DNA of 56,918 bases from Armatimonadota bacterium (GTDB lineage: Bacteria; Armatimonadota; Zipacnadia; Zipacnadales; UBA11051): assembly GCA_013178155.1 (NCBI GenBank), contig JABLXH010000022.1, positions 1 through 56,918 of the forward strand. Reading direction: 5' to 3'. A program made the translations under genes and the position numbers. Position 1 is the first letter of the stretch. Each line of letters starts with the position of its first letter. The notes beneath the pieces are model-generated. The model was not told where the DNA came from and did no database searches. It saw only the letters and a program-made list of their open reading frames with translations. Positions 47,288 through 50,462 of this stretch are shown here, piece by piece.

Positions 47288-48253
47288 ATGCCCGAGCAGC
47301 AGGTGTTCTTCTCCGACTACACGCTGGCCGATGAGCTGGACCTGGAGGAAAGCATCCTTGGTCCGGCCGGTCTGACTATCATTCGCACCCAGGCTGCCAC
47401 CGAGGAAGAGGTGCTGGCGGCGCTGGAGGGCCTCGACCCGGTGGCCCTGGTGACCCAGTGGGCACCGATCACACCCCGCGTGCTGGACAAGTGCCCGCAT
47501 CTGAAGGTTGTCTCCCGCAACGGCATCGGCGTGGACAACATAGACCTGGATTACTGCCGGCAACGAGGCATCGTCGTCACCAACTCGCCGCGCTACTGCA
47601 CCCGCGAGGTCGCTGACCATGCCATGGCGCTGCTCCTGGCGCTGTCCCGCAAGCTGCTGTTCACCACCGACCGGGTGCGTGCCGGGGAATGGACCAGCGA
47701 GTTCTTGACCCCCATTCGCCGGCTCAGTGAATGCACCCTGGGCGTCATTGGCATGGGTGGCATCGGGCGGGCCGTCGTAGAGCGCGCGCGCCCCTTCTTC
47801 GGCGAGGTCATCGGCCATGACGCCTACCCCACGGACGTGGTCGTCGCCGGCCAGCCGGTCACCATGACCAGTCTCGATGAGCTGCTGTCCCGCTCGGACT
47901 TCGTAACCCTCCACGTCCCCGGGACCCCTGAGACAACGCACCTGATCAACGCTGCGAGACTGGCACAGATGAAGCCAGGGGCCTATCTGGTCAACACCTG
48001 CCGGGGCATCGTGGTGGACACGGAGGCGCTGGTGGACGCCCTCCGCAGCGGTCACCTCCGGGGGGCGGGGCTCGATGTGTTTGAGCACGAGCCCCTGCCG
48101 CCCGACCATCCGCTGCGGTTCTTCCCCGAGGTTATCATCACACCACACGTGGCTTACTACTCCGAGGAGGCCACCGCTGACGTGCGACGCGACACCTGTG
48201 TCAACATCGTGAATGTGCTGGCGGGGAGACCACCGGTGAACCGTGTTGTCTGA
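47288..48253 (+). CDS. C-terminal-binding-protein-type 2-hydroxyacid dehydrogenase
   Basis: The protein has 321 residues with AGGAGG before the ATG. The NAD-binding motif is GVIGMGGIGRAVVERARPF, with FVTLHVPGTPETTHLI, the conserved Arg in NTCRGIVVDTEAL, and the Glu/His pair in DVFEHEPLP and ITPHVAYYSEE. It belongs to the D-isomer-specific dehydrogenases (phosphoglycerate, glyoxylate or CtBP-like). Substrate is unresolved; no serine-pathway neighbour is present. A TTGACC (47199-47204) may be part of its promoter. Confidence 0.88.
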   Translation: MPEQQVFFSDYTLADELDLEESILGPAGLTIIRTQAATEEEVLAALEGLDPVALVTQWAPITPRVLDKCPHLKVVSRNGIGVDNIDLDYCRQRGIVVTNSPRYCTREVADHAMALLLALSRKLLFTTDRVRAGEWTSEFLTPIRRLSECTLGVIGMGGIGRAVVERARPFFGEVIGHDAYPTDVVVAGQPVTMTSLDELLSRSDFVTLHVPGTPETTHLINAARLAQMKPGAYLVNTCRGIVVDTEALVDALRSGHLRGAGLDVFEHEPLPPDHPLRFFPEVIITPHVAYYSEEATADVRRDTCVNIVNVLAGRPPVNRVV

Positions 48254-48333
48254 GGCCGAGTGGTTGGCTGTCGGTGGTCCTTATGCAGGGAACGCACGCC
48301 GCACATGATTGTCAAAGATGACCGGAGACCCCC

Positions 48334-48363
48334 TTGACAGAGCGGGGTGGGGAGGTCTACACT
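48334..48363 (+). promoter_or_regulatory. Strong promoter for the small SOS-type gene
   Basis: A consensus -35 TTGACA (48334-48339) and a -10 TACACT (48358-48363) are 18 bp apart. Transcription would start near 48370, inside the LexA-like operator. Confidence 0.7.
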
Positions 48364-48364
48364 G

Positions 48365-48378
48365 CGAACTTGTGTTCG
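48365..48378. promoter_or_regulatory. LexA/DinR-type operator, perfect CGAAC-N4-GTTCG palindrome
   Basis: The sequence CGAACTTGTGTTCG has inverted 5-bp half-sites and a 4-bp spacer. It matches the Gram-positive and actinobacterial LexA box (CGAAC-N4-GTTCG). It lies 1 bp past the -10 element and covers the predicted start of transcription, where a repressor would block it. Confidence 0.75.
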
Positions 48379-48411
48379 ACAAACATAAGTTCTATGTGGG
48401 AGAATGCAGCC

Positions 48412-48609
48412 ATGGACACAGTCTCCGAATGCAGTTCGGCCGCGCTGAATGGCGTTGATGTCCTCCTGTGGGTTCTCTTTGTTGCCGTGGTCCCACGGCT
48501 CTTCGTCTGGGCCTACCGGAGGCCGGTCAGTCGAACAACTGAGGTCGCGCTGGCGCAGCAGGAGGCAGAGCCGGCAACGGATGTTCCGCAGCTCAAGCTA
48601 GCAGTGTAG
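48412..48609 (+). CDS. Small single-span membrane protein under LexA-type control (candidate SOS cell-division inhibitor)
   Basis: The protein has 65 residues from the ATG at 48412 with GGGAG upstream. A short N-terminus (MDTVSECSSAALNG) is followed by one hydrophobic span (VDVLLWVLFVAVVPRLFVWAY, about 15-35) with RR just after, then a polar tail of about 29 residues. The gene has its own promoter, LexA-type operator and downstream hairpin. SOS-induced small membrane inhibitors of the divisome (SidA, YneA, DivS and ChiZ) have this size and topology but little shared sequence. The division role is inferred from the operator and topology only. Confidence 0.6.
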   Translation: MDTVSECSSAALNGVDVLLWVLFVAVVPRLFVWAYRRPVSRTTEVALAQQEAEPATDVPQLKLAV

Positions 48610-48634
48610 CAGCGCCTGAGGACGTGCCGCCACG

Positions 48635-48658
48635 GACGCCCGGCAACCACCGGGCGTC
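48635..48658 (+). terminator. Stem-loop after the small gene
   Basis: A 9-bp stem, GACGCCCGG (48635-48643) and CCGGGCGTC (48650-48658), loop CAACCA, lies 26 bp after the stop. The following TGGCGTTCC is not a proper U-tract, so this may be a weak or bidirectional terminator. Confidence 0.5.
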
Positions 48659-48741
48659 TGGCGTTCCTGGTCAAGCAGGCGGCGCGGCTTACCCGGGCAG
48701 GCACTGTGGACAAGCTGCGGCGGTTGCCACAGATTGTTGTT

Positions 48742-48770
48742 TTGCCAGTGCCCACCGATCATGCTATCAT
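48742..48770 (+). promoter_or_regulatory. Predicted sigma-70-type promoter for the GH172 gene
   Basis: TTGCCA (48742-48747), 17 bp, then TATCAT (48765-48770). Transcription from about 48777 leaves a leader of some 95 nt before the ATG at 48873. Confidence 0.6.
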
Positions 48771-48872
48771 TACGCAGTGGTGGGTTACCGCTGGGGGCAA
48801 GGTCAGCAACGAACACGGGTGGCGCTATCCAGAGGGGAAAGCGCCGCGCAAGTACGGACAGGTTCGACCCAC

Positions 48873-50462
48873 ATGAGCGGTTTTCTCGTTGACTGGACAC
48901 GGCTCGAGGGTCTGGAACTGCCGCGAACCTATCGCTCGCGCCGCGTGAGCCGTCTTCTTGACATTGAGCCCAACACCACTGTCACCCTCTTCGACGTGCG
49001 GGGAGCAGGCTGCCTGCACCACCTCTGGTTCACGCTGGGGCACAACAACTTCCGCGGGCTGATCGTACGCATGTACTGGGACGGGGAGACCGACCCCAGC
49101 GTGGAGGCGCCCCTGACAGACCTGTGCGGCATCGGCCACAACCAGCGGTCAGCGGAGATCGCGACCCCGCTGATAGCCGTGGCGCCGCACAATGGTCTGA
49201 ACCTCTACTTCCCGATGCCCTTCGCCCGCCGAGCCAAGATTACCCTCACGAACGACAACCCTACGCCCGTTGATGGTCAGCTATACTTCCAGGCCGACTA
49301 CGCCGAGTTCACCCACGCCCAGACGGCGACCATGCGTTTCCATGCCCAGTGGCGCCGCGACAATCCTGCTGTGCGTCGCGGCAAGCTCTACACCATCGCC
49401 GAGGCCTTGGGCCGGGGCTATCTCGTCGGGACGACGTATCACCTCCGTCTGCGGGACCATGCCGACGCCTGGTTCCACGGGGGCGGCGATCAGGTGCTGC
49501 TGGACGGCGGCACACCGCAAGCCAACGTAGTGCATGGCATCGGTGGCGAGGACTTCTTCGGGGCCTCATGGGGTATCCGAGAGTTTCGGACGCCCTATTG
49601 CGGTTGTCTCCTGACCGGTGAACGCCTCTCCATGTACCGGTTCTTTGCGGAGGCGCCGATTCGCTTCGACCACAGCCTGTTGTTTGGCTTCGGCACCATG
49701 GCCAATAGCGTTTCAAGCGTCGCCTACTGGTACCAGGTCGAGCCCCACGAGCGATTCTGGGAGCTGCCGCCCCGGGAACTGCGCCTGCCGGAGGCCGACA
49801 TCGCGGCCAGCGAGTACGATGTGGAGCTGGAGCCGCGCCAACAGGGGAGCTGGGCCGTGGTGGGTCCCTTCTCGGGTGACCTGGAGACCGTCCTCCCCCC
49901 TGAGCGGGCCTATCTTTCTGACCCGGACCGCGCCCTGAAAGACCAGGTCTACCCGACCAGCTATGGTCGGCCCTTCGGGACCACCGCGGATCCGGCCTCA
50001 GCCACGGTGCGATGGGAGTGGGTGCGGACCGCTCTCTGGTGGCTGGACCTCAACGCGATTTTCGCTCCCAAGATGGCCGGCCCCACCACTGTGCAGATGG
50101 TCCACGGGGTGGCTTACCTGCTGGCTCGGGTTCATTCGCCCGACGAGCGACTGGCCGGGCTGCTGGCGACCTTCCATGATGGCCTGAAGGCCTGGGTGAA
50201 CGGCCGGGAAGTGTACGCGGGACAGCACGCGGCCACTTACGCGGCGGAGATCATCCCGCTGGAGCTGCGGCCGGGTGACAACACGGTCCTGCTCAAGACA
50301 ACCAACACCGACCCGACGACCTGGACGGGCTGGTGCCTGAGCCTCCGTCTGTGTCATCCGGACGGCACACCGGCCACCGACCTGCAGTACGACCCCCTGG
50401 ACGATCTGCCCGACAGCCCCATCGGGCTGCGCTTGCCGCCAGCGGACGCGCCGCGCCCATGA
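48873..50462 (+). CDS. DUF2961/GH172-family protein with C-terminal beta domain
   Basis: The protein has 529 residues from the ATG at 48873; an upstream extension overlaps the promoter and was not used. The DUF2961 core occupies about 1-290 (LPRTYRSRRVSRLL, GAGCLHHLWFTLGHNN, IVRMYWDGETDPSVEAPLTDLCGIGH, FPMPFARRAKITLTND). GH172 enzymes act on alpha-D-fructofuranosides or D-arabinofuranosides. The C-terminal part (about 320-529) has WAVVGPFSGDLETVL and LELRPGDNTVLLKTTN, like beta-sandwich domains of other secreted sugar enzymes. No signal peptide is visible, so it is probably cytoplasmic or exported by another route. Confidence 0.83.
   Translation: MSGFLVDWTRLEGLELPRTYRSRRVSRLLDIEPNTTVTLFDVRGAGCLHHLWFTLGHNNFRGLIVRMYWDGETDPSVEAPLTDLCGIGHNQRSAEIATPLIAVAPHNGLNLYFPMPFARRAKITLTNDNPTPVDGQLYFQADYAEFTHAQTATMRFHAQWRRDNPAVRRGKLYTIAEALGRGYLVGTTYHLRLRDHADAWFHGGGDQVLLDGGTPQANVVHGIGGEDFFGASWGIREFRTPYCGCLLTGERLSMYRFFAEAPIRFDHSLLFGFGTMANSVSSVAYWYQVEPHERFWELPPRELRLPEADIAASEYDVELEPRQQGSWAVVGPFSGDLETVLPPERAYLSDPDRALKDQVYPTSYGRPFGTTADPASATVRWEWVRTALWWLDLNAIFAPKMAGPTTVQMVHGVAYLLARVHSPDERLAGLLATFHDGLKAWVNGREVYAGQHAATYAAEIIPLELRPGDNTVLLKTTNTDPTTWTGWCLSLRLCHPDGTPATDLQYDPLDDLPDSPIGLRLPPADAPRP

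Follow-up and report, generated by a model that had tools for sequence, protein, structure and literature searches.

A candidate SOS-regulated single-span membrane protein behind a tandem LexA operator in Armatimonadota

Self-cleavage of LexA, stimulated by RecA upon DNA damage, is an established pathway. Outside the γ-proteobacteria, the usual division brakes of the SOS response are small single-span proteins (PMC4211646, PMC13396833, PMC6851548); SidA binds FtsW/FtsN (PMC4211646), and the span of YneA contacts TM7 of FtsW (PMC13396833). These brakes vary in sequence between lineages and escape homology searches. In colicin genes, adjacent or overlapping LexA boxes prevent leaky, lethal expression (PMC2994835). 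The published Gram-positive LexA consensus is CGAACRNRYGTTYC, and a CGAAC-type box is also read by the LexA of Bacillus subtilis (PMC2248561). Here we describe a unit at positions 48334-48658 of a 56,918-nucleotide stretch of an Armatimonadota genome (the window, by which we mean the whole stretch analyzed), a candidate gene whose product is probably a brake on growth or division, induced by DNA damage, that belongs to a previously undescribed family.

The original prediction had described a stand-alone SOS-type unit consisting of a TTGACA-18-TACACT promoter, a perfect LexA-like operator directly after the −10, a 65-residue frame with one hydrophobic span, and a 9-bp stem-loop serving as a terminator. 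Promoter, operator, and frame were all found in place (Table 1). The −35/−10 pair (48334-48363) matches the consensus at 10 of 12 positions, and a promoter scan returned three promoter-like sites in 801 bp where 0.1 would be expected. The operator CGAACTTGTGTTCG begins 1 base past the −10 and is the sole perfect box match within the window. Together with a second box, which the original prediction overlooked, it forms a tandem pair with a 15-bp step. The frame opens with ATG at 48412 and its stop codon occupies 48607-48609; in the relatives, GGGGG/AAGGGG occupies the position, relative to the start codon, that the ribosome-binding site has in the window gene. The stem of the stem-loop was also confirmed, its arms (48635-48643 / 48650-48658) pairing perfectly over 9 bp (z = −1.85), whereas the terminator was not: because a T-run is absent 3′ of the hairpin and a terminator scan of the locus gave no match, we regard it as only a possible terminator and not one of the standard intrinsic type. 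The unit is flanked by a 2-hydroxyacid dehydrogenase gene upstream and a gene for a DUF2961 protein downstream, neither of which has a known repair role. An imperfect 16-nt inverted repeat (48357-48372 / 48594-48609, 88% complementary) pairs the −10/operator region with the 3′ end of the frame and may be due to chance.

Table 1. Coordinates of the features of the unit, numbered from the first base of the window
Feature	Position	Strand	Basis and remarks
−35 hexamer TTGACA	48334..48339	+	Promoter scan; aligns with the TTGACA of three relatives
−10 hexamer TACACT	48358..48363	+	18-base spacer; relatives have a 17-base spacer and TATACT/TATAAT
LexA box 1, CGAACTTGTGTTCG	48365..48378	+	Over the expected transcription start; half-sites are those of the genome's own lexA operator
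LexA box 2, CAAACATAAGTTCT	48380..48393	+	One mismatch (last base); 1 base after box 1
Ribosome-binding site GGGAG within GGGAGAA	48397..48403	+	Sequence; equivalents in relatives
65-codon gene	48412..48609	+	Acidic N terminus; single span, approximately residues 14-34; C-terminal tail rich in Arg at first, then polar
9-bp GC hairpin without T-run	48635..48658	+	Stem search, terminator scan; possible weak terminator

The presence of lexA in the genome, with a matching motif in its promoter, had been set as a check on the original prediction. The genome encodes one lexA (TIGR00498, 227 bits against a cut-off of 111), and its promoter carries the box CGAACTATTGTTTG. The DNA-binding helix of the encoded LexA is of the Gram-positive type, and we take its recognition helix to resemble that of B. 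subtilis LexA. Across the order, CGAAC-N4-GTTTG was found upstream of lexA in 20 of 30 lexA loci; those lacking it come mostly from one family (f3), in which R-GAAC-N4-GTTTG stands in at least three lexA promoters, and the rest are truncated loci. A LexA box also precedes a DEAD-box helicase gene in the window's own genome and in G001, G002, G005, and G006 (L170, L126, L154, L148, and L163); this helicase is a conserved SOS member, unusual in textbook regulons. Within the window's family the box further precedes DUF6504 and DnaE-type polymerase genes, a DUF5131 gene, and dinB, one of the genes whose promoters the original prediction had proposed to search. Because the motif is present at the genome's own lexA, at 20 lexA promoters of the order, and at polymerase and helicase genes, we conclude that this lineage uses the CGAAC-N4-GTTYG-type motif as its LexA box.

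Among the boxed genes, the DnaE-type polymerase carries a PHP domain (L131, L153, L160, L144). In G002 and G006, the DUF6504 gene lies between the LexA box and the DnaE-type polymerase gene, and this arrangement suggests a mutasome-like operon. The DUF5131 gene was seen behind the box in two genomes (L146, L149).

By itself, the single-box motif is at chance level genome-wide (five perfect palindromic boxes in the whole 5.5 Mb genome versus six for a reversed control), and it is position and context that set the window site apart. CGAAC-N4-GTTYG occurs at about 12 sites in the genome, three of which are clearly promoter-proximal and intergenic: those of lexA, the helicase gene, and the window gene. 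CAAAC-N4-GTTTG occurs there once.

With a 1-base spacer, the tandem pair was found in four of the seven family genomes, a single time per genome and in every case ahead of a small single-span gene. The window unit reads TTGACA-18-TACACT-g-CGAACTTGTGTTCG-a-CAAACATAAGTTCT; the corresponding units are TTGACA-17-TATACT-CAAACTATTGTTCG-a-CGAACACACGTTTG in G004, TTGACA-17-TATAAT-CAAACAACTGTTCG-c-CGCACAAATGTTTG in G002, and TTGACA-17-TATAAT-CAAACAGTTGTTCG-a-CGAACAAGCGTTTG in G006. By computation, the unit with its operator, promoter, and gene is thus conserved in four genomes, and, provided the genes are orthologous, the operator is conserved at the candidate orthologue in G002, G004, and G006. Neither a profile search nor a tandem-operator search allowing two mismatches detected the unit in G001, G003, or G005, and the same two-mismatch search across the order yielded no additional small single-span unit. 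When 291 genomes of the phylum were searched for the tandem pair with at most one mismatch, 12 sites were recovered, one per positive genome and including the four family units, versus two for the reversed-pattern control. Since G116 has the pair in front of lexA and G045 has it in front of a Y-family polymerase gene (L204, L208), the tandem LexA operator is a real design in the phylum that is not confined to the window-type gene.

Two further observations concern these operators. In G007 (L214:1500-1530), a 20-nt sequence (CGAACTTGTGTTCGACAAAC) that matches the window operator exactly stands before a gene with repeated SH3-like segments; we rejected this site as a further unit, its downstream product being an SH3-like protein. 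A third, weaker LexA-like half site lies just upstream of the −35 in the relatives (CGAACATATTTTCT, CGAACAAATTTTCT, and CGAACAAGTTTTCT in L210, L211, and L212); it is conserved in the three relatives and absent from the window.

Because the box of the lineage is confirmed and the tandem pair recurs before small single-span genes in relatives, we consider the putative LexA control of the window gene nearly certain. The claim of an SOS-type unit is likewise borne out by the lexA gene in the genome, the box type in its promoter, and the recurrence in three family relatives, where conservation was to be checked, of this arrangement together with a small single-span protein resembling that of the window.

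The four proteins differ in length (65 residues in the window, 60 in G004, and 41 each in G002 and G006), each with one hydrophobic span. Their start codons (ATG, GTG, TTG, and TTG) align, with GA next in all four. With one single-residue gap before it, a core can be aligned (AALNGVDVLLWVLFVAVVPRL in the window, AVFRGWDLLVLLCWVLMSPAL in G004, AVLKGWDLLLLIAWVLLTPEL in G002, and AVLKGWDVLFLIAWVLLTPEL in G006) in which seven residues (A, G, D, L, V, P, L) are invariant, giving the shared pattern A-x3-G-x-D-x-L...V...P-x-L. Between G002 and G006 there are seven synonymous and three conservative codon changes and none at second positions (NG86: dN 0.033, dS 0.28, dN/dS ∼0.12), so this frame appears to evolve as expected for translated coding sequence. 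The window protein is only 25 to 30% identical to its candidate relatives, and a profile built from the relatives alone, run against frames totaling about 1 million residues, ranked it behind some spurious frames (E = 0.25); span-preserving shuffles match the window-versus-relatives score in about 2% of cases. In a profile search of 41 genomes of the order, no units but the four boxed ones scored; the match ranked after them (L176) was spurious, lying antisense to an apparent shikimate kinase gene. Searching with the 65-residue protein gave a best E of 0.018 in 60 relatives, with no match having a box upstream, and no homologue in viral contigs; in 84,980 species genomes a single 16-residue match, in Polyangium, was judged to be chance. 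The LexA operator used as a search key, on the other hand, retrieved the unit in relatives whose proteins are too divergent for sequence search.

The four proteins are likely to be homologous, the case being made by weak similarity combined with identical regulation and layout. Sequence by itself cannot prove this, since the genomic location is not shared: the relatives' units adjoin an isocitrate/isopropylmalate-dehydrogenase-like gene, with the downstream neighbor mostly on the opposite strand, and the window gene is located elsewhere. The weak pairwise similarity, the different neighborhood, and the double operators before lexA and the Y-family polymerase gene would all fit a reading, compatible with any function, in which the small proteins of the window and of the three relatives have no common ancestry and stand behind similar operators by coincidence; given that all four agree in the operator pair, in spacing, in where the promoter lies, in the alignment of the start codons, and in the core, we consider this improbable. 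That boxes and frame are functionless and due to chance agrees with the lack of single-box enrichment, but it is very hard to reconcile with a tandem pair that four genomes have kept in the same position, with box and promoter in register, and with substitutions between relatives that look coding, and we give it almost no credence.

As for the 65-residue protein itself, its span shows no amphipathicity (moment 0.11-0.27), and the mean hydropathy is 2.16 across a 19-residue stretch. AlphaFold2 returned a single helix (residues 3-36) that is confident in the span, followed by a low-confidence tail without regular structure. From the distribution of charge, all four proteins are predicted to be oriented N-out/C-in. 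Clustering of the invariant residues on one helix face was not significant (P = 0.36). The protein had no significant match in Pfam, NCBIfam, PHROGs, or PADLOC, and no sequence relation to SidA, YneA, SosA, DivS, or ChiZ was found.

We propose that in an undamaged cell, two LexA dimers on the adjacent boxes over the transcription start would shut a strong promoter, and that upon DNA damage, cleavage of LexA would free this promoter, with its perfect −35, so that a small membrane protein is produced in a burst. The product, presumed to be a single-span inner-membrane protein of 65 residues lying N-out/C-in by its charge, would most likely delay growth, probably by binding of its span to a membrane-located part of the septal cell-wall machinery (FtsW/FtsI region) in the manner of SidA and YneA, and the delay would last until LexA is restored. 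In this scheme, we infer LexA binding, induction, membrane insertion, target, and division arrest. A single-gene SOS unit, repressed by LexA and with a SidA/YneA-like division-inhibitor role, is our best guess, to which we would give an even chance; the original prediction, too, had proposed a candidate division inhibitor, which we find plausible.

The main rival is a TisB/DinQ-type SOS membrane peptide, which would depolarize the inner membrane and slow the cell and would not be directed at the divisome. Small size, a lone hydrophobic span, and very strict control by LexA would suit such a peptide, for which Escherichia coli DinQ, an SOS-regulated single-span depolarizing peptide, provides the precedent (PMC3567139). 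No promoter-like site was found on the − strand in 48100-48900, however, and a search confined to the locus gave no Rfam match; these results, the lack of amphipathicity, and the conserved G-x-D and P, which suggest specific contacts (a weak point, with four sequences of which two are nearly identical), make this rival unlikely in our view. On these grounds, which are modest (a non-amphipathic span, conserved G-x-D and P, and neither an antisense RNA nor an opposing promoter detected at the locus), we favor a division inhibitor over a depolarizing toxin. The strong differences in length and sequence among the C-terminal tails (proteins of 41-65 residues) would also fit an SOS-regulated membrane adaptor that inhibits nothing and modulates, for example, a protease, a transporter, or a repair complex; the tight tandem operator, by the colicin precedent, suggests instead a product harmful when leaky, and we think an adaptor quite unlikely. 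A new division-inhibitor family of a phylum that has been little studied, one that evolves fast, is controlled by a dedicated tandem LexA operator, and acts via the span alone, N-out/C-in unlike YneA, ChiZ, and SosA, is a tentative reading that we would not yet favor.

We regard the small-protein family as new but its functional kind as already known, and see no new mechanism in it; its notable aspects are the tandem operator and the operator's use as a search key. If the protein blocks division, it would add an independent case to the view that bacteria have repeatedly evolved small single-span proteins to act on the septal synthase; it would also offer a short peptide of natural origin as a probe of that synthase.

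Among described systems, SidA of Caulobacter crescentus resembles the window protein as predicted, being a LexA-controlled, tiny single-span inner-membrane protein with no extra domain (PMC4211646); it differs in its length of 29 residues and its known target, FtsW, and no sequence relation between the two was found. YneA of B. subtilis and ChiZ of Mycobacterium are likewise SOS-induced, small, and single-span, as predicted for the window protein, but they carry an extracellular LysM domain that the window protein lacks, and its orientation is predicted to be the opposite. SosA of Staphylococcus aureus is an SOS-induced small membrane division inhibitor (PMC6851548), the role proposed here for the window protein; SosA needs its extracellular C-terminal region, whereas the longer tail of the window protein is predicted to be cytoplasmic. 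DinQ and TisB of E. coli share with it the single span and SOS control (PMC3567139) but are type I toxins with an antisense RNA, and none was found at the window locus. For the operator, the closest likeness is to colicin genes: their box sequence is different and their product unrelated, but they too have two adjacent or overlapping LexA boxes, an arrangement for which very tight control is known (PMC2994835).
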